Below are positions 275 to 18,921 of a stretch of 21,177 nt of DNA, piece by piece; positions within the stretch are counted from its first letter, which is position 1; each line of letters begins with the position of its first letter. Where the stretch lies: positions 1 to 21,177 of IMG/VR virus record IMGVR_UViG_3300032282_002834, one strand, 5' to 3'. The notes below the pieces were generated by a model that did not search any database, was not told the origin of the DNA, and saw only the letters and a program-made list of their open reading frames with translations. Origin of the DNA: a virus. The position numbers were made by a program, and so were the translations under genes.

Positions 275-1219
275 CTATCCCCTCTCTAACCAAAATGTTT
301 TATCATCAATCTTTTGCCCGATACGTGCAACGTACTGTTCATCTTGTAATATGTTAAGGACTGATACGCCGTTGAGTATTTCTTCAGGTAGCGTCTCCAT
401 AGAATAGGTAGTCGGCGGACTAACAAACTTTGGTATGCTAGTGCTACTCATCACATCTACTGTTTCCTGTACATCAACATATGTTTCATCACCTACTTGA
501 CGGAAGCGTACAAATAGTGCATTTATTTTACGGGCATCTTCTTCCTTAACTTTTTGTAGCGTCTCTACCATTTTACTTGCAACATCAATAAACGCTTGTG
601 TTTTAAATTTAGTTCCCATAGTTATTAGATGTATCATCTCTTGTTCTATGGTAGCTTGGTTTGCATAAGTGATACCCCGTAGTAAGTTGTTAAGGTCACT
701 ACGTGCCATTTTACTATTGTTATATATCTTATACGCTACATCACTAAAGTATTCTGACGCAAGTTCTCTATCTGTGTAGGGTACAACATACTTACTTATA
801 ATTTTAAATGCTTTGTCCATGTTAGATGTCATAAGCATATTATATTCAGTACGCCCATCACTATACTTAGCATTAGTTATCTTGCGACTGTACACTCCAT
901 AAGTTTCTGTTGGGTGTGCTTTATGTGATACAGTATAATCCTTATACCCTACGCGTCCGAGTTCAAATGCACAATCGTCTGTGTATAAGAAAAATTCCCT
1001 TACTGTATGTACCGAACCATTAGTGTGTACAGCTTTGGGGTGTATCTTTAGCGTTGGCATATACTGTAATATCTTATCCATTAAAGGTTTAAGTGGTTGT
1101 TCAACAGGATAGTCTTGCACCCATGTTTGCCAATTATTATCCTTAGCATGTTGTATTGCCTTTACTAATCCATCTTTATTACCTTGATGTTCTAATGCTT
1201 CTTTCATTTTCTGAGCCAT
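275..1219 (-). CDS. Hypothetical phage protein (314 aa)
   Basis: The frame is also open from an ATG at 1225. The AAAGGAG site is only one base from that ATG but seven bases from the ATG at 1219, so I chose 1219 (start MAQKMKEALE). The protein is soluble, with no clear catalytic motif; its C-terminal half is rich in Val and Thr. Residues 266-271 (VSPPTT) are encoded by a degenerate copy, at 407-424, of the palindrome found all through this arm. The gene lies 12 bases after the gene at 1232-2203 and one base before the next. I do not recognise the family. Confidence 0.75.
   Translation of the reverse strand: MAQKMKEALEHQGNKDGLVKAIQHAKDNNWQTWVQDYPVEQPLKPLMDKILQYMPTLKIHPKAVHTNGSVHTVREFFLYTDDCAFELGRVGYKDYTVSHKAHPTETYGVYSRKITNAKYSDGRTEYNMLMTSNMDKAFKIISKYVVPYTDRELASEYFSDVAYKIYNNSKMARSDLNNLLRGITYANQATIEQEMIHLITMGTKFKTQAFIDVASKMVETLQKVKEEDARKINALFVRFRQVGDETYVDVQETVDVMSSTSIPKFVSPPTTYSMETLPEEILNGVSVLNILQDEQYVARIGQKIDDKTFWLERG
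407..424. repeat. Degenerate dispersed palindrome (GGTAGTC-GGCG-GACTAAC)
   Basis: Same 18-base layout as the perfect copies, with one changed base in the left arm (second position). It lies inside the gene at 275-1219, in the frame that reads Val-Ser-x-x-Thr. One perfect arm plus six of seven bases in the other is well above chance given the other twelve copies, but it could be a decayed copy without function. Confidence 0.7.
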
Positions 1220-1231: not shown

Positions 1232-2203
1232 TTATTTATAATCAATATCATACATATTGCCAACCTTACGCATCATCTCTATAAACTTTTGGCGTGATTT
1301 ATCTCCTACTTGATAGTGCCTACCCGTTCCAATAGACTCAGTTGCATAAGCAATACATACTGCGAGTGCCATTTTCTTTGGGTGTTCCTCATCATCAAGT
1401 ATGTCCAATACTTCTTTAGAGTTAGTTGATTGATGCCAATACCATATACTAGTCTTGCCATTTGTCATCAAGTCTGAATAAACGTCTAGTCCTTCATGTG
1501 TTAGACTGTCACCCAACACAGGCAACATGACGTTTGTCCATTCCCAAAACTTTAATATCTTGTCTTGATATTGATATGCAAGTTCACCCTTACGTTTAGT
1601 GGGTACAGGCAATAAGTTATTAACACGTGTAAAATTATTTCCTTCACGTTTAAATATAATCTTGTGGTCATGTATGACTTCCATACTTCCCGATTGCCCC
1701 CACTTTACATTACTAACCATTTTCGGCAATGCATAATCTTTGTCCTCATAGTTAATAAAATGTTTGCCTGTGTTATACCAAAATGTTATTCCGACAGGCA
1801 AGTACCATGCTAGAAATTCAAACCTTGTATATGATGTTTGAAATTTATGATAGTGATTGCGTATTGTTAAATACTCACCATCGGCTCTACGTTCCCATAG
1901 GATAGGGCATGTTTGTTTTAATTCTTCTTTACCACCCCACCACCATTCATGTCCGTCACATAAGCCATAAGTATTATCATCAAACTTATATACACGTTCC
2001 CACCATTTCCAACGACTATTGAGTGGTCGTCTGTCCTGCATACGTAAGCCTGTATCTTTAGTTCTTACAGGCGTAATGCTTTCATATGCCTTTACTACTT
2101 CATCAAACGTAGACATACCACGATGAATTGATTTACCATATTCAGATGTTTTAAATTTATTTATTCTACCTATTTGTGCTACCTTAACTTCTATTGCACC
2201 CAT
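1232..2203 (-). CDS. Hypothetical tryptophan-rich protein (323 aa)
   Basis: The ATG at 2203 is preceded by AAGGA at a normal distance, and a GTTAGTC palindrome (2222-2239) lies just upstream between this gene and the VWA gene. The middle of the protein is very rich in Trp, Tyr and His, for example WKWWERVY near residue 66 and HEWWWGGKEE near residue 86. This suggests a compact, possibly ligand-binding fold. The C-terminal third contains EHPKKMALAVCIAYATES. No membrane segment and no recognised family. It may belong to the same transcript as the ATPase/VWA cassette upstream of it. Confidence 0.75.
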   Translation of the reverse strand: MGAIEVKVAQIGRINKFKTSEYGKSIHRGMSTFDEVVKAYESITPVRTKDTGLRMQDRRPLNSRWKWWERVYKFDDNTYGLCDGHEWWWGGKEELKQTCPILWERRADGEYLTIRNHYHKFQTSYTRFEFLAWYLPVGITFWYNTGKHFINYEDKDYALPKMVSNVKWGQSGSMEVIHDHKIIFKREGNNFTRVNNLLPVPTKRKGELAYQYQDKILKFWEWTNVMLPVLGDSLTHEGLDVYSDLMTNGKTSIWYWHQSTNSKEVLDILDDEEHPKKMALAVCIAYATESIGTGRHYQVGDKSRQKFIEMMRKVGNMYDIDYK

Positions 2204-2221: not shown

Positions 2222-2239
2222 GTTAGTCTGCCGACTAAC
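2222..2239. repeat. Dispersed palindrome, copy 1 (GTTAGTC-TGCC-GACTAAC)
   Basis: Perfect seven-base inverted arms around a four-base centre. It lies between the stop codon of the VWA gene (2243) and the ribosome binding site of the next leftward gene (start 2203). Confidence 0.95.
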
Positions 2240-2242
2240 GTG

Positions 2243-3433
2243 TTAATCAATATGTACTGCCACACCCACATTAGGTGTCGCACGTTTATTACCTTGTATG
2301 CACCATATCAATGGTACACTCCATGCACCCCATGAGTTGCCCAAGTGTCCGTCTGTCAATACCACTACACATTCGGGCTTGATGCCATGCTCATTCATAT
2401 AGCTTGGTACACATTCCACCATAGTTCCACCACCACCTTTCGGCTTAGTAGCTTTAGGTAAGTTGTCTAACTCATCTTGGTTATATACTTCGTGACCACA
2501 TACTTCGGTATCCCAATAAAGTACACGTACCTTACTTGGCTTGACACTATCACATATACCCTTGACTTCTGAAAGAAATGCACGTAGTTCTCTCTCGCCG
2601 ATTGAACCCGACGTGTCGATTGCTACGACTATCTCACCGATTGACTCACTGATACTACTTGGCATTAACATGTTATAACCTATGTATCGTCGATTAGGTT
2701 TGCGCCATGTCGAATAGTCTTTGCCTGCACACGTGGTAGATACAAAGTCTCGTAAGAGTTCGCGCCAATCTTTCTTAGGCTCAAGTAAATCTTTCAAGTC
2801 ACGTAGTCCACCCGTACCCATCTTGCCTGCCATGATTGCACCTTGACGTACTGCTTCATCAATCTCACGTGCTAGGGCTTCGGCTTCATCACCCGATAGT
2901 TCTTTAGCACCTGCCCAATCATGTTCATCGAAACCTTGACCATCACCTTGCTTACCTTGACCTTGCCCTTGACCATCATCACCACTATCCTCTAGTAGTT
3001 TAAATACTTGGTCTGTGTTCATGTTGGTGTACTTACTATCCATGAGTCCACCTTGTGGCATCTTAATCCATTGACTCTTGTATGCGTCTGTGTTTGCAAG
3101 TTTAAGGTTAATCACATAGTCACATGCTTGGTTAGTTCGCATAGAGTCTATCTGATTAAGATGTTGCCATGTACTAAGATGTCGGTACATCTTGTGATAG
3201 CACTCATGTAGCATAACAAATCTGAATTCGGCATCACTTAACTTATCTACAAATGCTCTGCCATACATTTCATCTTTGCCATTGGTACATGCAGTAGGTA
3301 CATCATCTACCACCTTCTTACTACCAATCATCAGTACCCCTGCAAGTGCTACAAACTCATCTCGACCTATGATGTCGGTCGTTGCTTTATACAAGCGTTG
3401 TTCTGCCGTCAATGTCTTACCTATGTTAAGCAT
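2243..3433 (-). CDS. Putative metallopeptidase with C-terminal VWA domain (DUF2201-like)
   Basis: About 396 residues. Three ATGs stand in tandem (3439, 3436, 3433); the GGGAG site is best spaced for 3433. The N-terminal domain has a zinc-protease signature HECYH (about residues 76-80), followed by ACDYVINLKL, as in DUF2201-type putative metallopeptidases. A Gly/Gln/Asp-rich linker spans about 153-168. The C-terminal domain is VWA-like: MIDAS motif DTSGS (about 273-277), a GGGGT turn and LTDG near the end. VWA proteins of this kind work with MoxR-type AAA+ ATPases, and one is encoded two genes upstream (3649-4761). The gene overlaps the end of the small gene 3426-3614 by eight bases. Its role in the phage is unknown; metal-dependent remodelling or activation of a target complex is an inference. 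Confidence 0.88.
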   Translation of the reverse strand: MLNIGKTLTAEQRLYKATTDIIGRDEFVALAGVLMIGSKKVVDDVPTACTNGKDEMYGRAFVDKLSDAEFRFVMLHECYHKMYRHLSTWQHLNQIDSMRTNQACDYVINLKLANTDAYKSQWIKMPQGGLMDSKYTNMNTDQVFKLLEDSGDDGQGQGQGKQGDGQGFDEHDWAGAKELSGDEAEALAREIDEAVRQGAIMAGKMGTGGLRDLKDLLEPKKDWRELLRDFVSTTCAGKDYSTWRKPNRRYIGYNMLMPSSISESIGEIVVAIDTSGSIGERELRAFLSEVKGICDSVKPSKVRVLYWDTEVCGHEVYNQDELDNLPKATKPKGGGGTMVECVPSYMNEHGIKPECVVVLTDGHLGNSWGAWSVPLIWCIQGNKRATPNVGVAVHID

Positions 3434-3614
3434 CATCATTCTCCCAAAGATGTATTTGTTCTAGCAAACTTTCTGCTAGTTCATACCTACCTTCATAAAT
3501 TTTTTCTTCACCATCAGTTAATACCTCATCTCCATTTACTATAGGTTCAGCATCTTTAATGGCATTTCTACAAAAATCTTTAACTTTAAGTAAAACTATT
3601 TGTGACTTACTCAT
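3426..3614 (-). CDS. Small acidic hypothetical protein (62 aa)
   Basis: The ATG at 3614 follows AGGAG with six-base spacing. The product is a short, acidic, probably helical soluble protein (C-terminus ESLLEQIHLWENDDA). It sits between the ATPase gene and the VWA gene and overlaps the VWA start by eight bases, so it is probably co-translated with that pair and may be an accessory subunit. No family recognised. A GTTAGTC palindrome (3630-3647) separates it from the ATPase gene. Confidence 0.7.
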   Translation of the reverse strand: MSKSQIVLLKVKDFCRNAIKDAEPIVNGDEVLTDGEEKIYEGRYELAESLLEQIHLWENDDA

Positions 3615-3629
3615 ATCATTCTCCTAGTT

Positions 3630-3647
3630 GTTAGTCGGTCGACTAAC
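3630..3647. repeat. Dispersed palindrome, copy 2 (GTTAGTC-GGTC-GACTAAC)
   Basis: Perfect arms. It begins one base after the stop codon of the ATPase gene (3649) and lies upstream of the ribosome binding site of the gene at 3426-3614. Confidence 0.95.
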
Positions 3648-3648
3648 A

Positions 3649-4761
3649 TTATTTTTTATCGGCACTAAACATAAAGTTGTTAGCAATACACCATTCAGTA
3701 AACTTCTTATTACTCATGACGATTGCTTGTTTCTGATACTTAGGATTACGTACTTGCATAGCAAACAAGGCTTGTGCTTCTTTATCAAGTCTGTTCAGAT
3801 ATACCATGAACGAGTCAATGAAGTCTTTGTTCATAGTTGCCAATGCTCGATACACAATCATGACGATTGCTGATGATGACTCTGGAACTTTAGCTTCGAG
3901 TGGTTTCGTCTTAATATCTTCCTGTGTTGGAAGTTGGTCAACCAATTCGATATAGGCATCTAGGTCTGCGCCACCACGTGCGCCAATAGTACCAATCAAG
4001 TTGGACTTCAAGGCATTGTGGCTTAACTTATCCTTAGCCCATAACCAATGAGACGCTAACTCGGCTGAACGTGGCGTAAAGAACGCAGGACGTTGAGCCT
4101 GTGGGTGATAGATATACGGATTACCACCTACTTCGTCGTCGGGTTTATCGACTTCCTCATACGATTGAAATAGTTGTTCACCATTTTCTTTAACCCACAT
4201 AATAAGTGATGGGTGTATTCCTGCATTGAACGCATAATTTTCTATCCATTCAGTTGCAGTTGGTTTCTTCATACGTATAACTGTGATACGATTTCTATGG
4301 TGGGGCATAAGTAAGTCACCAACACCTTCTGTGCCAAGATTAGTCGTTGCAAATACGATAGACTCGGGGTGCAATTTCTTATTCCCCATTGTTCTTTCTA
4401 ACATAATTCGCATCATGCCATTCTTAACTGATGGGTTCGCTTTACCAAACTCGTCAATCATTAAGATGATGGGCTTATCATGGTGCATACCCATTTCTTC
4501 ATTCGGTACAAACTTCACATAGTCTTGAGTGTCATCACTTACTATTTTCGGCAACATCAAATCACCTAAGTCTTTAGTGGTACAATCAAAATAACATGGG
4601 ATATGGTCGGGCAATTTACTTGCCAATATCTTAAGGATTGATGACTTGCCTGTACCCATGTGACCTTGTACCAATGTGGTCACTTGATGTCCTGTTGCTA
4701 AGATACTGTCTGCACACTCGTCAATTGATTGTGCGAATAAACTTTCTGCTGATTGTTTCAT
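3649..4761 (-). CDS. MoxR-like AAA+ ATPase
   Basis: 370 residues from the ATG at 4761, which has GGAG six bases upstream; the ATG at 4773 lacks a site. Visible motifs: Walker A GHMGTGKS (about 33-40), Walker B IILMIDE (about 98-104), sensor 1 ATTN (about 138-141), and an arginine-finger-like HHRNR (about 154-158). This is the MoxR/CbbQ/NorQ-type architecture. Such ATPases pair with VWA-domain partners to remodel or insert metal into targets (RavA-ViaA and NorQ-NorD are known pairs), and the VWA partner is encoded just downstream at 2243-3433. The N-terminus is short, with no signal or membrane segment, so it acts in the host cytoplasm. The target in the infected cell cannot be told from sequence. 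Confidence 0.92.
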   Translation of the reverse strand: MKQSAESLFAQSIDECADSILATGHQVTTLVQGHMGTGKSSILKILASKLPDHIPCYFDCTTKDLGDLMLPKIVSDDTQDYVKFVPNEEMGMHHDKPIILMIDEFGKANPSVKNGMMRIMLERTMGNKKLHPESIVFATTNLGTEGVGDLLMPHHRNRITVIRMKKPTATEWIENYAFNAGIHPSLIMWVKENGEQLFQSYEEVDKPDDEVGGNPYIYHPQAQRPAFFTPRSAELASHWLWAKDKLSHNALKSNLIGTIGARGGADLDAYIELVDQLPTQEDIKTKPLEAKVPESSSAIVMIVYRALATMNKDFIDSFMVYLNRLDKEAQALFAMQVRNPKYQKQAIVMSNKKFTEWCIANNFMFSADKK

Positions 4762-4784
4762 GTGTGTCTCCATTTTAAAATTAA

Positions 4785-4802
4785 GTTAGTCGTCGGACTA
4801 AC
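4785..4802. repeat. Dispersed palindrome, copy 3 (GTTAGTC-GTCG-GACTAAC)
   Basis: Perfect arms. It lies five bases beyond the stop codon of the gene at 4808-5692 and just upstream of the ATPase gene's leader. Confidence 0.95.
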
Positions 4803-4807
4803 ACGTA

Positions 4808-5692
4808 CTACCATGCAAACTCTTTTAATAACTCATCAACCTTGCGCTTTGTGTCATGACGTAAATAGTCATCATCACGTAGTGCGTCGGGTGTAATACC
4901 TTTTAATGCGTCAGTAATTTTTAGCTTAGCTTTACGCATAGCGTCATCATTCGTCACATTAAACTTGTCGAGTAATTCGACGATGCCAGTCACATTTGTG
5001 ACAAGTGTATCTCTGAATATCTGCTTGTTATCGCCTGCTAACTTTTCACTCATAGATTTCAACGCGTCATAAGTTCTCTGCCATACATCTTTATAAGCAT
5101 TGTGCAGTTGTTCCTCATAGTAGTTGGCATAACTCTCGTTAAGTTGTTTGAGTGCGTCCTGTCCCACATCAACCCTAAAATCCCCCACTTCGGGTACAGG
5201 GCTATACTTCAATCTAAATGCAAACTTCGCTGAGACTTCGGATATATCGGGATAGTCCTCGGGATTAAACAAGTTGCCTAGTTTCCCATGCGCACGTGCA
5301 ATCATGTTGTCATAGTCATTGATAAACTCACTAACCAATCGATTGAATTCGGCGTCGGCTTCCGTCATCTTTTTGTTATACTCAAAGAATAAAGGTGTAG
5401 TGAGTAGTCGTAGTCCACTGTCTGACCATGGCATAGTTTGGTAATAGTGAGCAGTTCTAGCTGAGCCTGCAAACTTATTGATAGCTTCAAACTTAGGTTC
5501 GTCGGCAAATAACTTCTTATGATAATTGCCTGCTCTTGTCGTTGTATGCTTTTGAGTGTCAATCTCTTGTGATACGCTTTTATCAAACTTGCGTCCTGTC
5601 CACAAAGATATGTTTAGTTCTACTAACATAGCTGATGATGCTATGCTTGGTGCATTGTTAGTCGGCTGACTAACAGTCGTTGATGTTTCCAT
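4808..5692 (-). CDS. DUF3150-like protein, first gene of the ATPase/VWA cassette
   Basis: 294 residues from the ATG at 5692, which has AAGGAG at seven-base spacing; an in-frame ATG at 5698 is too close to that site. From memory, the segment LNISLWTGRKFDKSVSQE and the long helical body resemble DUF3150 proteins, often encoded beside an AAA+ ATPase and a VWA protein. I could not verify this by search. Residues 7-12 (VSQPTN) are exactly the translation of a GTTAGTC palindrome. A strong leftward promoter (P2) lies about 40 bases upstream of the start, so this gene heads its own operon. It is probably the third component of the ATPase/VWA system. Function unknown. Confidence 0.78.
   Translation of the reverse strand: METSTTVSQPTNNAPSIASSAMLVELNISLWTGRKFDKSVSQEIDTQKHTTTRAGNYHKKLFADEPKFEAINKFAGSARTAHYYQTMPWSDSGLRLLTTPLFFEYNKKMTEADAEFNRLVSEFINDYDNMIARAHGKLGNLFNPEDYPDISEVSAKFAFRLKYSPVPEVGDFRVDVGQDALKQLNESYANYYEEQLHNAYKDVWQRTYDALKSMSEKLAGDNKQIFRDTLVTNVTGIVELLDKFNVTNDDAMRKAKLKITDALKGITPDALRDDDYLRHDTKRKVDELLKEFAW
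5657..5674. repeat. Dispersed palindrome, copy 4, inside codons 7-12 of a gene (centre GGCT)
   Basis: Perfect arms GTTAGTC and GACTAAC. The element fills exactly six codons of the DUF3150-like gene, reading Val-Ser-Gln-Pro-Thr-Asn, and lies about 60-77 bases downstream of the predicted P2 start point. Confidence 0.95.
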
Positions 5693-5739
5693 TTCCATTC
5701 TCCTTAGTTGATTTAATAAACTTTACCACTATATGATAC

Positions 5740-5768
5740 AGTATAACACACTTTAACATCTTAGTCAA
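5740..5768 (-). promoter_or_regulatory. Leftward promoter P2 (TTGACT-N17-TATACT, extended -10)
   Basis: On the minus strand the -35 box is TTGACT (5768-5763). After a 17-base spacer comes TATACT (5745-5740), preceded by TG one base away (TGTTATACT), an extended -10. The predicted start is near 5733 and the next start codon is at 5692. The core is identical to P1 at 7979-8007, and the spacer and flanks are also similar. It should drive the DUF3150-like/ATPase/VWA operon. Confidence 0.75.
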
Positions 5769-5770
5769 TG

Positions 5771-5920
5771 TTAGTGGGTGGGTCTACGAATACCATAGAC
5801 TTTACGCCGTGACTTCGTGATGATGTCATTCGCGTCTAACACGTTCTGCATAATGACTTCATCTTTAGTCCATGCGAGTATCACATATTCCTTTCGGTTA
5901 ATTCTTTTTGTGAGTCGCAT
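5771..5920 (-). CDS. Small basic hypothetical protein (49 aa)
   Basis: I place the start at the ATG at 5920, which has GAGGA five to six bases upstream and lies one base after the stop of the gene at 5922-6212. A longer frame opens at a GTG at 5971 but would lie inside the upstream gene and lacks a better site. The short product (MRLTKRINRKEYVILAW...) is strongly basic, which hints at nucleic-acid binding, but no motif supports this. It is the last gene before promoter P2; its stop codon abuts the P2 -35 box. Confidence 0.6.
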   Translation of the reverse strand: MRLTKRINRKEYVILAWTKDEVIMQNVLDANDIITKSRRKVYGIRRPTH

Positions 5921-5921
5921 A

Positions 5922-6212
5922 TCAATCCTCACACGTGCCACTACTGCACATTTTAGCCTCGAGTATTTCACGTTCTAGTTCCTCGACTGCTATATGGTTG
6001 ATGAGTGTATGCTGATATTCCTTAACGTCTTTGTATATACTACCTTCTAAAACATTGACGTTTATCAACATTCCTCGGTCTTGTACGTGGTCTTTAATGA
6101 CTGACTCGATATAAGTCTCGGGTGTAATTTCGCTACCTAGCGAACCAATCATTCTTAACTTGTCCTCGTCCAATGTCACTTGGGCTACGATACTAAACTT
6201 AATTGTTTTCAT
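5922..6212 (-). CDS. Hypothetical protein (96 aa)
   Basis: The ATG at 6212 overlaps the stop of the upstream small membrane-protein gene (ATGA) and has AGGAAG about eight bases upstream. The N-terminus KTIKFSIVAQVTLDEDKL looks like beta strands and the C-terminal part is acidic and helical, ending in a Cys pair (MCSSGTCED). Soluble, with no recognised family. It is part of a chain of overlapping small genes transcribed from P1. Confidence 0.7.
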   Translation of the reverse strand: MKTIKFSIVAQVTLDEDKLRMIGSLGSEITPETYIESVIKDHVQDRGMLINVNVLEGSIYKDVKEYQHTLINHIAVEELEREILEAKMCSSGTCED

Positions 6213-6388
6213 TTGTCATCTTCCTTTATTTCACGTACTCGACCATAGCCACGTTTTTTACTTTCGTGCATTTCGTCAAGCATTTCTTGATAACGTCTTT
6301 TGGTTTCTCGGTTAATCTTATCTCGCATTAACGTCGCACCACAAAAGAACCCACATACAAACCATACTAAAAAATGTATATATTCCAT
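6209..6388 (-). CDS. Small membrane protein (59 aa)
   Basis: Short gene with ATG at 6388, preceded by GAGAGGATAGT and lying one base after the stop of the gene at 6390-6623. Its stop overlaps the next ATG (ATGA). Residues 4-20 (IHFLVWFVCGFFCGATL) form one hydrophobic span; the remainder is a charged, basic-acidic cytoplasmic-type tail with heptad-like character (RETKRRYQEMLDEMHESKK). This layout fits a small inner-membrane anchor. A holin or spanin role cannot be claimed: the endolysin is encoded elsewhere and on the other strand. Confidence 0.72.
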   Translation of the reverse strand: MEYIHFLVWFVCGFFCGATLMRDKINRETKRRYQEMLDEMHESKKRGYGRVREIKEDDK

Positions 6389-6389
6389 A

Positions 6390-6623
6390 CTATCCTCTCA
6401 AACTCATGATTGAAAAAATTAACACCATTGCTACTACATACGGCAAAACATAACTTATAAAATCTTTTGCCCCTTGTATTACCACTTCCTTTACGCGTTC
6501 AATTCGGCGTTGTCTTACGTGCCGATTGTGTTCTGACATGGCTACGTGCCTGTCATAATTATATGCACGTTGTTTTGTTTCAGTTGTTAGTCTGTCGACT
6601 AACTTTTTATTTAGTGTTTCCAT
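6390..6623 (-). CDS. Small C-terminally membrane-anchored protein (77 aa)
   Basis: The ATG at 6623 has AGGGGG upstream. Residues 1-53 are polar and basic; residues 55-72 (FISYVLPYVVAMVLIFSI) form one hydrophobic span ending close to the C-terminus, as in tail-anchored proteins. Residues 8-13 (LVDRLT) are encoded by a GTTAGTC palindrome at 6586-6603. It overlaps the upstream gene by 13 bases and is followed at once by another one-span membrane protein with the opposite layout (span near the N-terminus), so the two may act as a pair. Function unknown. Confidence 0.75.
   Translation of the reverse strand: METLNKKLVDRLTTETKQRAYNYDRHVAMSEHNRHVRQRRIERVKEVVIQGAKDFISYVLPYVVAMVLIFSIMSLRG
6586..6603. 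repeat. Dispersed palindrome, copy 5, inside codons 7-13 of a gene (centre TGTC)
   Basis: Perfect arms. It is read in the frame giving Leu-Val-Asp-Arg-Leu-Thr near the N-terminus of the membrane protein at 6390-6623, 20-37 bases from the start codon. Confidence 0.95.
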
Positions 6624-6772
6624 ACTTTAGTCCCCCTTAAAATAATGTCGATTGCTAAAAGTTTTGTTTCACTATCTACCACATTACCTTGCTTCAATGA
6701 TTTCTTTAAGTTCATTAACGTGTTAATAGGTAAGTCACGATACTGTACGATATAGCTCTGAATTAAACTCAT
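6611..6772 (-). CDS. Small hypothetical protein (53 aa)
   Basis: A short gene with ATG at 6772 overlapping the stop of the upstream gene (ATGA) and a very strong GAGGAGG site upstream. The product (MSLIQSYIVQYRDLPINT...) looks helical and soluble. It overlaps the following gene by 13 bases. The strong ribosome binding site and overlaps on both sides make it a real gene despite its size. No function suggested. Confidence 0.68.
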   Translation of the reverse strand: MSLIQSYIVQYRDLPINTLMNLKKSLKQGNVVDSETKLLAIDIILRGTKVWKH

Positions 6773-6945
6773 GCTTTGTCCTCCTCTAAAATTAACTTAC
6801 CTCTTTGAACCCATATGTATGATGTTTGGTCTTCGTTATTATCTAAGTATTCATTAGCCCACATTTCTTCTGTGTATGTTTTTATCAAATAAGGTTTGCC
6901 ATCATCATCTAAACCCATCACACAATAAACTTCTATCTCACTCAT
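6769..6945 (-). CDS. Small acidic hypothetical protein (58 aa)
   Basis: The ATG at 6945 overlaps the stop of the zinc-ribbon gene by four bases and has GGGGGGA upstream; its stop overlaps the next ATG. The product is acidic, with a YIWVQRGKLILEED segment near the C-terminus and a GLDDDGKPYLIKTYT segment near the N-terminus, suggesting a small beta-rich fold. No family recognised. Confidence 0.68.
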   Translation of the reverse strand: MSEIEVYCVMGLDDDGKPYLIKTYTEEMWANEYLDNNEDQTSYIWVQRGKLILEEDKA

Positions 6946-7145
6946 TTTACAATCCCCCCTTTGTTATTCAAACCTTTCAAATCGTCCATGTTTGTGATGA
7001 GCATGTAATTGCTCTTGTGCATAGGTGCTATGGTGTGCTTTACTCGTCGTGCTATTTCCTCACCACATTGTAGGCATACGGCATAACCTAATCTTGCACG
7101 TGCTTGGTGTATCTGATTACCACAATCTTTACAATGATGCTTCAT
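6942..7145 (-). CDS. DksA/TraR-like C4 zinc-ribbon protein (67 aa)
   Basis: The ATG at 7145 follows AAGGAG with normal spacing. The N-terminal 30 residues carry two CxxC pairs (CKDC at 5-8 and CLQC at 24-27) in the pattern C-x2-C-G-x2-I-x2-A-R-x4-Y-x3-C-x2-C. This matches the zinc finger of the DksA/TraR family, which binds the secondary channel of RNA polymerase. The coiled-coil arm needed for full DksA action is absent; the rest is a short basic and polar tail. It may modulate host transcription, or it may be a generic zinc ribbon. It sits in the P1 operon among other small early-type genes. Confidence 0.8.
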   Translation of the reverse strand: MKHHCKDCGNQIHQARARLGYAVCLQCGEEIARRVKHTIAPMHKSNYMLITNMDDLKGLNNKGGIVK

Positions 7146-7164
7146 AATATTCTCCTTTGTTTAT

Positions 7165-7182
7165 GTTAGTCGGCTGACTAAC
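7165..7182. repeat. Dispersed palindrome, copy 6 (GTTAGTC-GGCT-GACTAAC)
   Basis: Perfect arms; the centre GGCT is the same as copy 4. Its last base is also the last base of the stop codon of the gene at 7182-7610, and it lies upstream of the zinc-ribbon gene's leader. Confidence 0.95.
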
Positions 7183-7610
7183 TACCATGCACTTAATCGG
7201 TGCGCTAGTTTTGAGTTGGCTATGTTATGTATGGCTCGGTTAATTTCTTCCTCAGTCATACGCGTTGATGAGTTGTTCTCGGGTTGGACTACGACGCCGA
7301 CTATGCCATAACGAGATAGTCGTTTCATCTGTTCTGTGTCCATAGGTATCGTAGGGCTACTTGGGCGTGTGTGACTCTGTTGTCTTGTGGTGCTTTGTGA
7401 ATACTTGTCGGTGTTCTCATACCATGTGGGTACTCCACCTTCGAACCATTCGGCAACGTACATGGGGAAGTGATAGCCATATGAATAGACTATGTATAAA
7501 TAAGTGGGGCGTGTTTCAGTTGGTGCGTTAGTTTCGGCAAAGGTATTGCTACCTTTGAAATCTGTTAGTCCGTTGACTAACAATCTTGCGTTCTTGTTTG
7601 ATGTTTTCAT
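7182..7610 (-). CDS. Conserved-type hypothetical phage protein (142 aa)
   Basis: The ATG at 7610 has AAGGAAA upstream. The central part reads YIVYSYGYHFPMYVAEW, then WYENTDKYS and QSHTRPS, a pattern I associate with a family of short uncharacterised phage proteins (possibly DUF8033, from memory). The C-terminal third (about 92-142) is a separate helical segment with MTEEEINRAIHNIA. Residues 11-16 (LVNGLT) are the translation of a GTTAGTC palindrome, in the same frame as in the gene at 6390-6623. Soluble, function unknown, second gene of the P1 operon. Confidence 0.75.
   Translation of the reverse strand: MKTSNKNARLLVNGLTDFKGSNTFAETNAPTETRPTYLYIVYSYGYHFPMYVAEWFEGGVPTWYENTDKYSQSTTRQQSHTRPSSPTIPMDTEQMKRLSRYGIVGVVVQPENNSSTRMTEEEINRAIHNIANSKLAHRLSAW
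7564..7581. repeat. Dispersed palindrome, copy 7, inside codons 10-16 of a gene (centre CGTT)
   Basis: Perfect arms; read as Leu-Val-Asn-Gly-Leu-Thr, 29-46 bases from the start codon of the gene at 7182-7610. Confidence 0.95.
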
Positions 7611-7644
7611 TTTTGTTTCCTTTTAGTTGTTAAGGGTTAAAAGA

Positions 7645-7830
7645 TTAAAGTGCAGTACCTTCGTGGTCTGCTTGTTTTTTGTAAAGTTTTTCTAAATCTA
7701 CTACAATATGGTTTAATCTAACCACTAATGATTGGTCATAATCACTACCACCTAAACCTGCTAACACGTGCATCAGTTCATACTTTGTTTCTTCTAGCTC
7801 AATTAAAATACCCATGATGTCGTCTTTCAT
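7645..7830 (-). CDS. Small helical hypothetical protein (61 aa), first gene of the leftward block
   Basis: The ATG at 7830 follows AAGGAGACGCAAA. The product is acidic and appears fully helical (ILIELEETKYELMHVL... VVRLNHIVVDLEKLYKKQ), perhaps a small coiled-coil dimer. It is the first gene after leftward promoter P1, with a leader of about 140 bases that contains a GTTAGTC palindrome. First genes of such operons are often early host-takeover proteins, but nothing in this sequence shows that. Confidence 0.7.
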   Translation of the reverse strand: MKDDIMGILIELEETKYELMHVLAGLGGSDYDQSLVVRLNHIVVDLEKLYKKQADHEGTAL

Positions 7831-7935
7831 TTTGCGTCTCCTTTTAGTTGATAATCAATAATTTAATAAAACGATTTGTTCGTGAGCCTGATGAGCCTGT
7901 CATTAACATACAACGTATTAACATGTTATGACATA

Positions 7936-7953
7936 GTTAGTCGGTGGACTAAC
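7936..7953. repeat. Dispersed palindrome, copy 8, in the P1 leader (centre GGTG)
   Basis: Perfect arms. It lies about 20-37 bases downstream of the predicted P1 start point, a position suited to an operator or a leader hairpin. Confidence 0.95.
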
Positions 7954-7978
7954 AGCAATACCTCGACCACTTAATAAT

Positions 7979-8007
7979 AGTATAACACGTAATCATGTCT
8001 TAGTCAA
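7979..8007 (-). promoter_or_regulatory. Leftward promoter P1 (TTGACT-N17-TATACT, extended -10)
   Basis: On the minus strand TTGACT (8007-8002), a 17-base spacer and TATACT (7984-7979) with an upstream TG (TGTTATACT). The predicted start is near 7972. The core is identical to P2. It precedes the whole leftward gene block. Confidence 0.78.
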
Positions 8008-8078
8008 GTAAAGTGATATCAAAGTCTAGTAATTCGTTAGTTATATTATTAATATATATTATATTATATTATAAAGTA

Positions 8079-8321
8079 TTTGAACCTATTGAACCTTATT
8101 TGTTCTTTAATGCCCCTTGGTACGACTGCTTTGTACCTTTGTTCCTTTTGAACCCTGCTTTTTAGTGTGTCGGGCAAAAATGGATTTAAGTTAAGAAATA
8201 TTGAAAAGGTAAGGTCTGTTTGGCGAAACACTCAAAAACATGGGTTCAATAGGTTCAATACGAACAAAACTTAATAATCAATGACTTACGGGGTTCAATA
8301 CAAGGTTCAATTGGGTTCAAT
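8079..8321. repeat. GGTTCAAT iteron-like repeat cluster with a 15-base inverted repeat
   Basis: Direct copies of GGTTCAAT start at 8243, 8252, 8292, 8304 and 8314. Inverse copies (ATTGAACC or TTTGAACC) start at 8079, 8088 and 8147. Within these, 8081-8095 and 8243-8257 are perfect 15-base inverted repeats (GGTTCAATAGGTTCA on the right side). Neighbouring copies in each pair are nine bases apart (8079/8088; 8243/8252), near one helical turn, which suggests cooperative protein binding. Confidence 0.85.
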
Positions 8322-8328
8322 ATAAGTG

Positions 8329-8357
8329 TTGACAAAATTAAAAATTTACCTTACACT
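8329..8357 (+). promoter_or_regulatory. Rightward sigma70-type promoter upstream of the HNH gene
   Basis: Perfect -35 TTGACA (8329-8334), 17-base spacer, -10 TACACT (8352-8357; four of six consensus bases). The predicted start is near 8364, only about 15 bases before the HNH start codon. The promoter follows the last GGTTCAAT repeat directly, and its -10 and start lie inside an 8-4-8 palindrome. Confidence 0.7.
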
Positions 8358-8372
8358 CTGTTCTCAGAGTGT
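8353..8372. promoter_or_regulatory. Operator-like palindrome over the -10 and start point
   Basis: ACACTCTG-TTCT-CAGAGTGT, eight-base perfect arms around four bases. It overlaps the rightward promoter's -10 box and start point, where a bound dimer would block transcription. The arm-4-arm layout matches that of the GTTAGTC family, but the arm sequence is different. As RNA it would be a 5' hairpin only if transcription began further upstream. Confidence 0.6.
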
Positions 8373-8378
8373 TATCAA

Positions 8379-8672
8379 ATGAAAACAATTTTTAAACCAT
8401 TCATTTCAGCTAAACTACGTAGTGAAGTATTACTACGTGATAAACGCACGTGTTATTATTGTGGTAAGCCTAAACTATATAATAGGTCTTATGCACTCGA
8501 CCATTTAATACCGACTGCATTAGGTGGTAAAACCACAATAGAAAACTTAGTTGTATCATGTAAGATATGTAATGCTAGGAAAAGCAAATCTACCCTAAAC
8601 GAGTATGTTAAAAAAAGGTTGGCAGAAATTGAACGTGAAAAGTCTCGCTTGGTTTTGTTAGTCGCCGACTAA
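8379..8672 (+). CDS. HNH endonuclease (97 aa)
   Basis: Small zinc-stabilised HNH nuclease. CYYC (25-28) and CKIC (61-64) are the zinc pairs; LDHLIPTALGG (40-50) supplies the Asp-His catalytic start, Asn56 (IENLV) the middle N and Asn65 (CNARKS) the last part of the motif. It resembles McrA-type or free-standing phage HNH proteins. The C-terminal tail is helical and basic. No strong ribosome binding site precedes the ATG at 8379 and the leader is short. Its last codons and stop (L-V-A-D-stop) are supplied by a GTTAGTC palindrome with a three-base centre. It may be a homing-type nuclease or take part in packaging or DNA processing; its distance from the terminase genes makes a packaging role less certain. 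Confidence 0.88.
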   Translation: MKTIFKPFISAKLRSEVLLRDKRTCYYCGKPKLYNRSYALDHLIPTALGGKTTIENLVVSCKICNARKSKSTLNEYVKKRLAEIEREKSRLVLLVAD

Positions 8673-8673
8673 C
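8657..8673. repeat. Dispersed palindrome, copy 9, 17-base variant forming the HNH stop codon (centre GCC)
   Basis: Perfect arms GTTAGTC and GACTAAC with only three central bases, the single length variant of the family. The TAA in the right arm is the stop codon of the HNH gene. Confidence 0.95.
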
Positions 8674-8674
8674 A

Positions 8675-8710
8675 TACCCTATGCTTTACGCTTTATAAAG
8701 TCACTGGTAT
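8675..8710 (+). repeat. 36-base repeat, copy A (promoter-like), upstream of the endolysin
   Basis: It matches 9141-9176 at 31 of 36 positions, with no gaps. It contains TTTACG (8685-8690), a 17-base spacer and TATACA (8708-8713) preceded by TGG, so it looks like an extended -10 promoter. Its start point would fall near 8720, inside the GTTAGTC palindrome at 8716-8733. Confidence 0.65.
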
Positions 8711-8715
8711 ACATT

Positions 8716-8733
8716 GTTAGTCCACCGACTAAC
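8716..8733. repeat. Dispersed palindrome, copy 10, upstream of the endolysin (centre CACC)
   Basis: Perfect arms. It lies 19 bases before the endolysin start codon and on the predicted start point of the promoter-like repeat A. Confidence 0.95.
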
Positions 8734-8752
8734 ATATTAATAGGAGAACTAT

Positions 8753-9127
8753 ATGGTGAACTTATTACCACAAGTTGCTTGTATGGCTATCGCTTTAATT
8801 GGTGAAACATACGGGGCTAACAATATCGAACTCACTCATGGTGTAGGTTATGTCATTATGAACCGAGCCAATCAAGATGTTAATAGGATATGTTCCGTGA
8901 CCGAAGCACCTTATCAGTTTGATGGTGTTAGAAAAGTATTACAAGGTAAGATGTATATAGATGAAAAGACTTTATTATCTTATGAGTTAATAGCTTTACA
9001 GATAATGAACAAGCAAGTCACTAATCCAGTTGGCAATGCTACACATTTTCATGATGACCGAGTAAAACCTTTTTGGTCTGTAGGTAGAAAAAAAGTAATA
9101 CGTATTGATAACATGACATTCTACTGA
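8753..9127 (+). CDS. SleB-type cell wall hydrolase (endolysin)
   Basis: 124 residues; the ATG at 8753 follows TAGGAGAACTAT. The sequence matches the Hydrolase_2/SleB fold: ALIGETYGA (Glu18 is the likely catalytic acid), HGVGYVIMNRA (29-39), then QFDG and NATHFHDDRVKPFW (95-108), where His98 and His100 lie in the conserved H-x-H segment. Members cut peptidoglycan glycan strands, as spore-cortex hydrolases or phage lysins. There is no signal peptide or membrane span, so release would need a holin, which is not recognised nearby. Length is normal for a single-domain enzyme. The gene stands alone, with GTTAGTC palindromes on both sides and 36-base promoter-like repeats before and after it. Confidence 0.88.
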   Translation: MVNLLPQVACMAIALIGETYGANNIELTHGVGYVIMNRANQDVNRICSVTEAPYQFDGVRKVLQGKMYIDEKTLLSYELIALQIMNKQVTNPVGNATHFHDDRVKPFWSVGRKKVIRIDNMTFY

Positions 9128-9140
9128 GCCGAAACTAATT

Positions 9141-9176
9141 TACCCTGTGCTACACGCGTTAAAAAGTCACTGGTAT
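9141..9176 (+). repeat. 36-base repeat, copy B, downstream of the endolysin
   Basis: 31 of 36 bases identical to 8675-8710, including the invariant end AAAGTCACTGGTAT. If it is a promoter, its -10 would be TATCTT (9174-9179) with TG upstream, but no rightward gene follows, so it may be a relic of a lost gene or a duplicated spacer. Confidence 0.6.
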
Positions 9177-9212
9177 CTTTTCGCATAGCGAATTATTCAG
9201 TAAGATATTAAT

Positions 9213-9230
9213 GTTAGTCTGGCGACTAAC
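9213..9230. repeat. Dispersed palindrome, copy 11 (centre TGGC)
   Basis: Perfect arms. It lies just before the terminator of the leftward gene at 9277-9783 and downstream of repeat B. Confidence 0.95.
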
Positions 9231-9234
9231 AGGC

Positions 9235-9267
9235 AAAAAAAAGCCCTAGCTTTTTAGGCTAGGGCTT
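9235..9267 (-). terminator. Rho-independent terminator for the leftward gene 9277-9783
   Basis: AAGCCCTAGC (9241-9250) pairs with GCTAGGGCTT (9258-9267), a ten-base-pair stem around a seven-base loop. On the minus strand it is followed by eight T (A-run 9235-9242). It begins ten bases after the stop codon. On the plus strand there is no T-run, so it acts only leftward. Confidence 0.88.
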
Positions 9268-9276
9268 AAGATGTTA

Positions 9277-9783
9277 TTACTTAACGATTGCTATCGCGCT
9301 TTTTACAATCTTGATAAAAGATGTTATATCAAAATCTAACTCATCATCTTTTTGCGCTACTTCTATCGCGTCATTCAACGCGTCAATGATACGTTGTTGG
9401 CTTGTACGTGTGACACGTGGCGCACTTGATTTTGGATTTTCAAATGCTATCAAGTGACGCTTGATTTTCCCATAGTATGAGCCTAATTGTTGTTGCGCGT
9501 ATCGCTTAGCATTTTTGTCACTCTCACTTAACGTCTTTGTTTCTTTGGTAATCAAGGATTGCCATTCAGCAGGTAAACCCTTAATAATTGCTTGAGTGAT
9601 ACTAAATTGCAACGTGGCGTTTGGGTTCGCGTCAGTCTTTTTGCTAGGCTTATCTAGCATACTTGATTTTACGCCGTCACTCACTAACGCGTCAGTCATT
9701 AATTTCCACTTGCCTTGCGTACTTCTATCATTACCAATTACATCAGTAATAAGTTTTTGTGTATTTTCTTTTAATGTAGTCAT
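9277..9783 (-). CDS. Hypothetical protein (168 aa), isolated leftward gene
   Basis: I place the start at the ATG at 9783 (MTTLKENTQKL), which follows TATAGGAAACTTTATT; an in-frame ATG at 9813 is less well supported. The protein is soluble, mixed alpha, with a basic middle (SDKNAKRYAQQQLGSYYGKIKRHLIAF) and a polar segment rich in Lys, Ser and Thr. The terminal helix runs DITSFIKIVKSAIAIVK. No family recognised; DNA binding is possible but not shown. It is a one-gene unit with its own terminator and a perfect -10 hexamer upstream, set between rightward genes. This layout is common for regulators, and that is an inference from context only. Confidence 0.75.
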   Translation of the reverse strand: MTTLKENTQKLITDVIGNDRSTQGKWKLMTDALVSDGVKSSMLDKPSKKTDANPNATLQFSITQAIIKGLPAEWQSLITKETKTLSESDKNAKRYAQQQLGSYYGKIKRHLIAFENPKSSAPRVTRTSQQRIIDALNDAIEVAQKDDELDFDITSFIKIVKSAIAIVK

Positions 9784-9840
9784 AATAAAGTTTCCTATAG
9801 TTAATGTCTGCATTGCGTTATTGCCTTGCCGACAGTTCCT

Positions 9841-9869
9841 ATTATACGGATTTTAGCCTAGCCACGCTG
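9841..9869 (-). promoter_or_regulatory. Possible leftward promoter for 9277-9783
   Basis: TATAAT on the minus strand (9846-9841) is a perfect -10 box about 60 bases from the start codon, but no good -35 lies at normal spacing (CAGCGT at 9869-9864). A GTTAGTC palindrome lies upstream at 9878-9895. An activator may be needed, or the call may be wrong. Confidence 0.4.
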
Positions 9870-9877
9870 TAAACGCT

Positions 9878-9895
9878 GTTAGTCTATGGACTAAC
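9878..9895. repeat. Dispersed palindrome, copy 12, rightmost (centre TATG)
   Basis: Perfect arms. It lies upstream of the possible promoter of the leftward gene 9277-9783. No further copy occurs to the right. Confidence 0.95.
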
Positions 9896-10108
9896 ACGAT
9901 ACCCCACCCCCCATTTTGTAGATTTGGTTCCATACCTACCTATAGGTCTACTATTACGCACACTACTAACCCAAGTTTTACAAATCACCCCCCGTCATCA
10001 TTTTTAAGTACCTAGCCTAAAAAATTTTTTATATAAAAATCAAACACTTACCTAATATGCATAAAAAATCGGCCGCGTCACAAATAAGTAACAATTGCGT
10101 TATACACT

Positions 10109-10134
10109 AAGAGGCTTAACGCCCCTCTTTTTTT
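10109..10134 (+). terminator. Probable rightward terminator before the late module
   Basis: AAGAGG (10109-10114) pairs with CCTCTT (10124-10129) around a nine-base loop, then a run of seven T (10128-10134). The stem is short, but the T-run is good. It would stop transcripts arriving from the left just ahead of the SprT-like gene, so the late genes would need their own promoter. Confidence 0.55.
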
Positions 10135-10150
10135 GTGTATACTATATAGT

Positions 10151-10495
10151 ATGGCCCCCAAAATACTTACTAGACGAAATTTAAGAATACTATATGGTGC
10201 ATTTATTAAAATGCCACCGTTTAATCAGTATCGTATGCCTGCACCTCACAAGATTCAATTTGCAGTAAAGAAGTTAGATGGGGCCCTTGGGTACTTTTAT
10301 ACAGAGCCTTGCCGAATTGAACTCGATATATCGAATGATACGTGGCATAAAATGAGTGAGACGTTATTGCATGAGATGATTCACTTGTGTCGATACCACA
10401 ACGGCAAGTGGGATTTTGATTCACATAACCACAACTTCATGGGTTTGGCTCAAAGAATATGTGACATATATAGGTTTGATATAGACACGTTCTAA
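10151..10495 (+). CDS. SprT-like zinc metalloprotein (114 aa)
   Basis: The zinc signature HEMIH (74-78) lies in LLHEMIHLCRYHNG, followed by DSHNHNFMGLA (90-100), where a later His is the expected third ligand. This is the SprT-like domain (SprT and Spartan proteins, DNA-protein crosslink proteases). The ATG at 10151 is the best start; an open TTG at 10133 lies in the terminator T-run. No Shine-Dalgarno sequence is visible, and TATACT (10138-10143) lies just upstream, so the transcript could be nearly leaderless. It is short and lacks a separate DNA-binding domain. It is the first gene of the packaging/head block; trimming of protein-DNA complexes before packaging is a speculative role. Confidence 0.82.
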   Translation: MAPKILTRRNLRILYGAFIKMPPFNQYRMPAPHKIQFAVKKLDGALGYFYTEPCRIELDISNDTWHKMSETLLHEMIHLCRYHNGKWDFDSHNHNFMGLAQRICDIYRFDIDTF

Positions 10496-10546
10496 CAAAT
10501 TAATATATAATGCGCAAACCCCCTATCAATCTGGACATAAGATTTG

Positions 10547-11188
10547 ATGCAACTAAACATAGAACCCGACGTAGGTATTGAGTTACCTGAAAACAATATT
10601 CCACTAGCTGACTTTAAAGAGAAAGCGGATGCCGCATGTGCGACAGCTGAGTATCTCGAACTAAAGATAGAACCCACCGAAGAAGATAAAGAGAAAGCTG
10701 AAGAAGTTATTCTCAAGCTTGCTGAAGACCCAGACAAGGGGAACCGGAAAGCCCTGACGCAATCTAAACATTTCTCAGCGCCCACATATATACAGACTAA
10801 ACACATATTAGATTCTTATGCGTTGAAAGTTGTTGAAAACGCCACACAGATAAGACTGTTAGTAACAAATAAACTCATCATGGAGTCAGAGAATGAAGAT
10901 GCGAAGATTAGACTTCGTGCACTCGAGCTACTTGGTAAGATTACAGACGTGGGACTCTTTACAGAAAAATCAGAAGTCACAGTGAATAACCGTTCATCAC
11001 AAGAGTTAGTCAATACACTCAAAGATAAAATTAGAAAACTTATGTACCCACAAGAAAATGTTCAGGACGCTGAGACTGTGGAGTCAGTTGAACTTGATGG
11101 TGAGACTATAGATATAGATAAAGAATTAGGAATAGAACCTGCCGAATCTAACGAACAGTATGATGATGACACAGACAAACCAGCTTGA
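10547..11188 (+). CDS. Terminase small subunit (probable)
   Basis: 213 residues from the ATG at 10547 (a TTG precedes it in frame); the ribosome binding site is weak. The protein is acidic at both ends with a basic, helical middle: a segment with KHFSAPTYIQTKHILDSYA near residues 77-95, then AKIRLRALELLGKITDVGLF near 125-144, typical of small terminases that recognise viral DNA and deliver it to the large subunit. The C-terminal 50 residues are strongly acidic. Its end overlaps the large terminase start by 29 bases, which implies coupled translation and supports the assignment. Confidence 0.78.
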   Translation: MQLNIEPDVGIELPENNIPLADFKEKADAACATAEYLELKIEPTEEDKEKAEEVILKLAEDPDKGNRKALTQSKHFSAPTYIQTKHILDSYALKVVENATQIRLLVTNKLIMESENEDAKIRLRALELLGKITDVGLFTEKSEVTVNNRSSQELVNTLKDKIRKLMYPQENVQDAETVESVELDGETIDIDKELGIEPAESNEQYDDDTDKPA

Positions 11189-12713: not shown

Positions 12714-12714
12714 T

Positions 12715-13659: not shown

Positions 13660-13668
13660 GGAAAAACT

Positions 13669-16173: not shown

Positions 16174-16179
16174 TAAATA

Positions 16180-16822: not shown

Positions 16823-16834
16823 TAGGAGGCGGAC

Positions 16835-17824: not shown

Positions 17825-17825
17825 G

Positions 17826-18272: not shown

Positions 18273-18296
18273 TAATTAATATAAAAGGAGTTATAA

Positions 18297-18905: not shown

Positions 18906-18921
18906 TTAAGGAGAAATAAAC

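Follow-up and report, generated by a model that had tools for sequence, protein, structure and literature searches.

Interrupted palindromes at gene junctions of uncultured podoviruses: very probable docking sites for a fast-evolving DNA-binding protein of the same virus

Introduction

What reads a short palindrome that recurs a dozen times in one part of a phage genome, and what do its copies do there? This question is raised by a 21,177-nt stretch of viral DNA (hereafter the window; positions 1 to 21,177 of IMG/VR record IMGVR_UViG_3300032282_002834), which is a fragment from a group of uncultured podoviruses with HTVC023P as a distant relative. It bears on an old question in phage immunity and transcription-factor evolution, namely how a many-site regulator changes its specificity, which is hard because all of its sites must change too. 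No published report of these sites was found in the open literature. Here, we suggest that a fast-evolving DNA-binding protein of the same virus very probably docks at the palindromes, and that it would thereby influence transcription.

The palindromes in the window

Based on a pattern search, exactly 12 perfect copies of GTTAGTC-N3/4-GACTAAC were recovered in the window, with the very starts and centre lengths of the original prediction. All lie within 2222-9895, and the centre has four bases in 11 of them and three in one (8657). Not a single perfect copy arose in 100 dinucleotide-preserving shuffles of the window, which bears out the earlier view that such recurrence cannot be chance, and the control pattern, read backwards, had no copy in the window. 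The degenerate copy that had been noted at 407..424 (GGTAGTC-GGCG-GACTAAC) indeed carries a single mismatch, and from 9896 to 21177 there is no copy, as had also been claimed, only single arms at 11005 and 17329.

The placement of the sites was judged from the open reading frames and the flanking sequence. Most copies had been said to stand between a stop codon and the next ribosome binding site (RBS), which holds for five of the 12 and fails for the other seven. The five are 2222..2239 (GTTAGTC-TGCC-GACTAAC), which comes right after the VWA stop codon and before the RBS of gene 1232-2203(-); 3630..3647, which adjoins the stop of the AAA ATPase gene and precedes the RBS of gene 3426-3614(-); 4785..4802, which precedes the RBS of AAA ATPase gene 3649-4773(-) itself; 7165..7182, with gene 7182-7610(-) on one side and the RBS of gene 6942-7145(-) on the other; and 8716..8733, upstream of the RBS of the cell-wall hydrolase gene 8753-9127(+). 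Three others fall within the opening codons of a gene: 5657..5674 in the DUF3150-like gene 4808-5698(-), 6586..6603 in gene 6390-6623(-), and 7564..7581 in gene 7182-7610(-). The first of these is about 65 nt downstream of the start of a predicted sigma-70 promoter (5740..5768, minus strand) of the DUF3150-AAA-VWA gene block, which is conserved in relatives.

As for the remaining copies, 8657..8673 (the three-base centre) shares bases with the 3' end of the HNH gene 8379-8672(+). Two are located in long upstream regions: 7936..7953 shortly after the predicted minus-strand promoter TTGACT-17-TATACT (8007-7979), and 9878..9895 upstream of a candidate regulator gene and of a TATAAT at 9841-9846 (minus strand). 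The last, 9213..9230, lies downstream of the same gene between convergent genes, beyond its terminator hairpin at 9241-9267. It should be noted that a terminator scan flags some of the palindromes, but the clear intrinsic terminator is this separate hairpin, and the palindromes were rejected as terminators.

Fixed places and switched arms in related phages

When the site was sought in relatives and mapped to gene boundaries, as the original prediction had proposed, the same junctions were found to be occupied by the same type of site with different arms (GTTAGTA, TGTAGTC, GTTAGGG, GTTAGTG, AGATGTA and many more). The arms are near-invariant inside one phage and change in concert from phage to phage, and in all the phages compared the site is an interrupted palindrome. 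For example, the counterpart of the 3630 site, with that phage's own arms, precedes the next gene, and the site of the DUF3150 gene keeps its place within the reading frame across relatives while its arms change. Relatives retrieved by terminase alone show the same architecture with other arms. Most relatives examined have 5-12 sites, compared with 12 in the window. A 7-3-7 layout is seen in L188, L201, L169 and L171 and in one window copy, the other window copies being 7-4-7, and within one phage the centre ranges from 3 to 5 bases, which is unusual for a rigid dimer. In mosaic phages, the sites near the regulator share one arm and the distal sites mostly another; some phages carry two site families, one of which is perhaps not read by the protein identified below. 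In the named relatives HTVC023P and DSL-LC04, no recurrent palindrome with 7-bp arms was found.

Then, could the palindromes be mobile elements or recombination sites? Single genes have been gained or lost between the window and its relative L152, some of them beside a site. However, orthologous sites change in sequence without moving, and no site lies close to two of the five gene indels. With positions retained through these switches and indels not generally linked to sites, this explanation was rejected, its probability being practically negligible.

Another explanation is that the palindromes act as RNA hairpins in messages, controlling translation, processing or termination. The arms are able to pair, and 29 of 88 sites lie 10-60 nt upstream of a start codon, against 5.9 expected. 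The original prediction had argued against RNA from fixed arms without compensating changes. This argument fails, since relatives do show symmetric arm changes; such changes are uninformative about DNA versus RNA, because the half-sites of a DNA palindrome vary symmetrically as well. The matter is decided by the mutational spectrum together with the residue-to-base code described below. About 4 of 23 one-mismatch copies, as read from the list, keep message pairing, which equals the chance rate of 1 in 6. In addition, the loop sequence has no fixed direction, the stem sequence is invariant inside one phage, and the code resides in a protein. RNA structure was rejected on the mutational spectrum, pairing in RNA not being under selection, and we consider hairpins in messages exceedingly improbable.

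A candidate reader

In all likelihood, the binding partner of the palindromes would be the 178-aa protein encoded at 9277..9813 (minus strand; the start may be 9783), a candidate cognate DNA-binding protein to which several sequence comparisons point. Its homologues are flanked by their own phage's site family. Among loci fetched by terminase, the same arm occurs on both flanks of the candidate gene in 16/37 cases, compared with 16/772 for other ORFs. In loci retrieved solely through the DNA pattern, the gene is present in 35/45 with at least two sites and in 7/75 with one. Arm similarity also tracks that of the regulator over and above that of terminase (partial r 0.48, 0/5000 permutations). 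The regulators of L142 and L144 are 92% identical, yet both flanking sites have changed; of their 16 differences, only two fall within residues 34-129, and both of these belong to the predicted recognition helix (residues 97-125; 9439..9525, minus strand in the window).

Searches of Pfam, PHROGs and the PDB with sequences of the 178-aa family gave no consistent family, although HTH_TbsP_C was matched by 2 of 57 members (E down to 1.8e-4), and no sequence homologue was found in 50,697 phage records, mycobacteriophages included, at E 0.01. The AlphaFold model is all-helical and confident (mean pLDDT 91.9), and its middle weakly resembles the DNA-binding region 4 of sigma factors. With the domain-only model, the top 11 structure rows are all sigma region 4, at Z 4.0-6.0, values too low to establish kinship by themselves when folds are helical. 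Foldseek matches of the model have E above 1, and a whole-protein structure search of the PDB and BFVD gave nothing below E 0.001. The 14-3-3 and other helical proteins among the weaker rows were treated as a common arrangement.

The same protein might instead be ParB-like or KorB-like, its sites serving partition, packaging or genome organisation with no main role in transcription. Many sites are indeed clustered round the gene of the binding protein, and Cluster O phages bear similar sites, also without known function. However, the sites are tied to gene starts. A scan of 57 and 46 proteins from two near-complete relatives detected neither a ParA nor a ParB family at E 0.001, and no integrase family. 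Nor is there any hint of a plasmid or prophage state, the terminase search against 84,980 species genomes yielding one phage-like contig, in a metagenome-assembled genome. We regard this role as distinctly unlikely.

A residue-to-base code

Columns of the protein family that covary with the arms cluster in helix 97-125, which holds 10 of the top 15. The top pair among about 1000 tested is residue 116 with the innermost arm base: K, R or Q goes with C, D with G, and N or Y with A. In the window, residue 116 is Lys (codon 9466-9468). Residue 108 goes with arm position 2 and residue 115 with arm position 6. The residue-116 rule was fixed before it was applied to held-out phages, where it was correct in 32/32 predictable cases, or 31/31 without one doubtful call. 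The held-out phages are biased towards G at base 7, and the operator call of one of them, L386, may be a terminator. As a single column, residue 116 predicted 33/34 held-out bases, compared with 22/34 for the next column and 29/34 for the nearest relative. On a tree of 54 proteins, phylogenetically independent switches of base 7 are few, at least five, and an independent-pairs test had too few pairs for significance. Taken across these sequences, the code is strongly supported.

Could the sites then have another phage or host reader, such as the HTH_17 protein of the replication module, the 178-aa gene being a mere neighbour? HTH_17 proteins occur in 10/17 records of relatives. However, their genes lie far from the sites in complete relatives, for which HTH_17 was rejected as reader, none was found in the window, and some site-bearing relatives (fragments) have none. 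Both the residue code and the L142/L144 switch implicate the 178-aa protein, and another reader is highly unlikely.

Proposed mechanism

The idea that the palindromes are operators or stoperators, read as DNA half-sites by a dimeric protein, is supported by the candidate cognate protein and by the rule tested on held-out phages. We infer that the 178-aa protein would bind directly as a dimer through the long helix of a helix-turn-helix-like domain, at sites that mark gene junctions and 5' ends across one non-structural gene block. It quite likely regulates transcription of that block. Probably, the palindromes are its operators in a stoperator-like network, and a net negative action is somewhat favoured. 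Several sites lie 30-70 nt downstream of predicted promoters, so that the bound protein would most likely hinder elongation through the block as a roadblock, as in a stoperator system.

The protein would also act at the gene that encodes it. The site there is upstream of the promoter, a position that fits activation as well as repression. The site centre is at about -70 from the predicted start (quartiles -84 to -57; 51/76 phages with a good promoter score), these positions resting on consensus matches, and in the window the automatic promoter choice differs from the TATAAT at 9841-9846. This distance, together with the resemblance to sigma region 4, would suit a protein that is mainly an activator, binding upstream of promoters and recruiting RNA polymerase, with the junction sites serving weak local promoters. 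However, most junction sites are only about 25 nt before the start codon, so that there is no room for a promoter in between. Moreover, the conserved promoter of the DUF3150 gene is upstream of its site, and the own-gene distances vary widely. A mainly activating role is rather unlikely.

For the operator network favoured here, specificity would diverge fast, with helix substitutions accompanying concerted site replacement or, alternatively, with recombination exchanging the regulator and nearby sites together. The mosaics L144, L030 and L022 look as if caught half-way through a switch. Tentatively, each lineage of this large, apparently non-integrating aquatic phage family may have a private operator alphabet at about 10 junctions, read by one fast-diversifying protein through a simple residue-to-base code; the driver might be competition among co-infecting relatives, in which the regulator silences an incoming phage with a shared operator. 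The system offers dozens of arm classes, a close pair after a switch (L142/L144) and a residue-base rule that withstood testing on held-out phages, and it gives a proposed function to a gene family absent from the public libraries searched. One amino acid that predicts one letter of the site makes the evolution of viral gene control directly testable.

Comparison with known systems

Synechococcus phage MinM2 carries 21 copies of GGTTCAG-N-CTGAACC. There, too, a site lies just upstream of the DUF3150 gene, and a 187-aa protein of similar size heads the block; however, the sites are genome-wide, structural genes included, and that protein has no sequence match to the 178-aa family. The extended start-associated sequences of Cluster K mycobacteriophages, which occur in the non-structural half, are inverted repeats that precede start codons, with a consensus that differs between subclusters (PMC3203893). 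The window is similar in position and in variation by lineage, whereas the Cluster K repeats are imperfect, 17 bp long, mostly with a 4-13 bp spacer, and linked to a 13-bp start sequence (PMC3203893), and it is here that a candidate reader is available.

Cluster A mycobacteriophages (L5, Bxb1, TipsytheTRex) have 20-30 repressor sites per genome, most of them away from promoters, and their consensus diverges with the repressor between phages (PMC6550527, PMC9283540). The many sites and the consensus diverging with the regulator are shared. However, the Cluster A phages are temperate, and their stoperators lack symmetry, follow the direction of transcription and are bound by a monomer (PMC6550527, PMC9283540), whereas the sites here are symmetric and directionless, with no sign of lysogeny in the scans described above, and the protein is unrelated, the 178-aa sequence having no match in the phage collection, mycobacteriophages included, at E 0.01.

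Cluster O mycobacteriophages (Corndog) have more than 30 copies of the 17-bp repeat TGTTCGG-N3-CCGAACA, many between genes or at 5' ends, with no fixed orientation; these phages have no integrase, and a dimeric binding protein was predicted by the authors (PMC4351075). Invariant 7-bp arms, a variable centre (three bases there, three or four in the window) and the lack of orientation are common to both, although the arm TGTTCGG is absent from the arms found in the window and its relatives. The five Cluster O genomes are closely related, and therefore no arm switching is seen there, whereas the present system comprises many arm classes and offers both a candidate reader and a residue-base code. 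For the Cluster O palindromes, it offers a lead: to seek a fast-evolving gene flanked by sites.

Recurrent Palindromes with Changing Arms

The twelve perfect copies of GTTAGTC-N3/4-GACTAAC in the original prediction were all confirmed (starting at 2222, 3630, 4785, 5657, 6586, 7165, 7564, 7936, 8657, 8716, 9213, and 9878), with none in shuffled sequence, and the degenerate copy at 407 has one mismatch. The block bearing these sites, with the terminase and capsid genes to its right, consists mostly of leftward genes and contains VWA/DUF2201, AAA ATPase, DUF3150-like, HNH and cell-wall hydrolase genes together with small genes. The terminase of this 21-kb virus record is 45-47% identical to those of Pelagibacter phages HTVC027P and HTVC023P, and 72-98% identical to those of many uncultured contigs. 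The analysis draws on sequence and prediction throughout.

Relatives fetched via the terminase alone, with the motif ignored, also contain recurrent interrupted palindromes, which have the same architecture and different arms, such as GTTAGTA, TGTAGTC, GTTAGGG, TGTCAAC, GTTATAC, GTTAGGC, GTACAAC, GTTAGTG, AGATGTA, TCTAGTC, TGGTGAA, and more. On longer contigs they are restricted to a single block, for example, 40,294-50,520 of 61,325 and 19,703-27,384 of 61,686. Among 12 contigs, 29 of the 88 sites precede a called start codon by 10-60 nt, compared with 5.9 expected and a maximum of 15 in 300 random placements. The DUF3150-like gene has a site within its first codons, ahead of a conserved peptide (mostly PSISSSAMLVEL), and the arm of this site is GTTAGTC in the window, GTTAGTA in the relatives L127, L143, and L144, TGTAGTC in L149 and GTTAGTG in L188, while L128 has a TCTGTA-type site. 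Thus, the location of the site is kept and its sequence is exchanged, in both arms and across all sites of one phage, which is the pattern expected if the site set follows one trans-acting reader.

In L043, L091, L093, and L188, a GGGTGGG...CCCACCC-like hairpin, possibly a terminator or attenuator, directly follows the palindrome between the AAA and VWA genes. In addition, the window and L152, otherwise 92-99% identical, differ by the presence or absence of five single genes (3445-3611, 6772-6940, 7620-7815, 8325-8671, and 12712-13647), the HNH gene among them.

Symmetric change in both arms cannot tell DNA from RNA, but copies with a single mismatch can. One-mismatch copies number 23 (0.2 expected by chance), next to 193 perfect ones. 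With the listed variants oriented manually by gene direction, according to our own reading, pairing in the message is kept in about 4 of the 23, which matches the one in six expected by chance. Consequently, the palindromes appear to function as DNA, not as RNA.

A Candidate Reader Gene

A gene of about 180 codons heads the block in almost every relative and is flanked by a site on at least one side. The window copy, 9277-9813 on the minus strand, lies between the sites starting at 9213 and 9878. When the fetched loci were searched with an HMM, 75 different family members were recovered. In terminase-fetched loci with enough flank, the same arm is found on both sides of 16 of 37 family members vs. 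16 of 772 other ORFs (a group that includes neighbors from the same block); the calling of operators near this putative regulator favors such gene association, but not the residue-base rule presented below. When the DNA pattern was the only criterion for fetching loci, 35 of the 45 loci with at least two copies contained the gene, as did 7 of the 75 that had just one. Divergence is much faster in the protein than in the terminase, and searches of Pfam, PHROGs, the sequences in PDB and a set of 50,697 phage records gave nothing consistent for the 178-aa family.

The AlphaFold model, based on 57 homologues, is essentially all-helical (mean pLDDT 91.9), and whole-protein structure searches gave no clear match. 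When the search was limited to the middle domain (93 residues, pLDDT 93.5), the top eleven second-look rows were all sigma factor region 4, the domain that binds the -35 element, with Z from 4.0 to 6.0, and the next row had a Z of 3.1. These matches are individually weak, and their weight rests on the agreement of the list. That agreement suggests a helix-turn-helix with residues 97-125 as recognition helix, and it does not prove kinship.

A G-rich tract is present at 9903-9912 (plus strand CCCCACCCCC) and at the same place in many relatives. Reading GGGGGGTGGGG on the regulator sense strand, it precedes the regulator-proximal site by 10-45 nt in most phages compared, although many regulators share only 20-35% identity. 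Candidate roles are a G-quadruplex, a packaging signal, or an element of a promoter or terminator. A small HTH_17 protein is also encoded in the replication module of 10 of 17 records (relatives G001-G016), far from the sites in complete ones.

A Residue-to-Base Rule

For 54 proteins, the arm was taken from the flanking sites; this training set was partly fetched with GTTAGTC and is enriched for it. Arm similarity tracks regulator similarity after terminase similarity is removed (partial r 0.48, n = 25 phages, a value reached in 0 of 5000 permutations). Column by column, helix 97-125 holds 10 of the 15 best covarying residues, and residue 116 with the innermost arm base (position 7) tops about 1000 residue-by-position pairs (z 17.9; 12.3 and 8.9 in reduced sets), with few independent switches of this base on the tree. 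Where the base is C, residue 116 is K, R or Q 34 times and N or L three times; G goes with D in 8 of 8, and A with N (6), Y (2) or L (1). Lysine and arginine are known to prefer guanine (the partner of C), aspartate cytosine, and asparagine adenine.

The rule was fixed first, and three extra scans using other genes then provided 40 new regulators below 85% identity to the training set, 35 of them with a recurrent flanking palindrome, called blind to residue 116. In this held-out set, which is skewed to G at base 7, the rule was right in all 32 predictable cases, among them phages with the new arms AGTATGG, GCGCATA, GTGTAAC, and TTTAGGG. Among these 32 calls, that of L386 could be a terminator; it was left out of the single-column comparison, which leaves 31 of 31. 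For 34 phages, residue 116 predicted 33, the next best column 22 and the nearest training relative 29; where that relative fails, residue 116 was right in 5 of 5. With smaller margins, residues 108 and 115 are the best columns for arm positions 2 and 6, an order along the helix as expected for a helix in the major groove.

Natural Switches and Mosaic Phages

The regulators of L142 and L144 are 92% identical, and both flanking sites differ symmetrically (AGATGTA vs. ATACGTA type). Only two of the 16 differences fall within residues 34-129, and both (K108R and G115S) are in the helix; L133, with AGATGTA arms and a regulator 52% identical, has K and G there. L143 and L144 share 93% identity in terminase and 22% in regulator, and L144 carries GTTAGTA sites, as in L143, far from the regulator, while other sites adjoin it. 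The same split is seen in L030, and L022/L107, L017, and L072 have two arm families with less clean boundaries. This mosaic pattern fits the exchange of the regulator together with nearby sites. The second family in these phages may represent either relics after a regulator swap or the sites of a second reader.

Possible Mode of Action

Strong, conserved sigma-70 promoters are predicted upstream of the DUF3150 gene, with a start that precedes the ATG by about 35-75 nt; the site would therefore lie some 65-85 nt into the transcript. Downstream of a second predicted promoter (8007-7979), a site follows at about 27 nt, and further sites occur at later junctions of the block. The simplest reading of this layout is a protein that would hinder elongation at many points of the block, as in Cluster A stoperators. 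At the regulator's own gene, the site is upstream of the predicted promoter, centered near -70, and the regulator would also have some action there. Activation instead of an elongation block is the main rival.

Comparison with Known Systems

In Cluster O mycobacteriophages, a 7-3-7 palindrome of unknown function, its arms invariant, occurs 34 times. Cluster A stoperators, to which we liken the proposed hindrance of elongation, are asymmetric and bound by a monomer. Cyanophage MinM2 contains 21 copies of GGTTCAG-N-CTGAACC; its record (OQ594354) and those of Pag-Yong1 (OL906435) and Pra-JY27 (PP438419) bear three host names and agree in length (65,014) and in terminase match; they are possibly one phage deposited three times. 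What sets the present sites apart is a candidate reader together with the many specificities.
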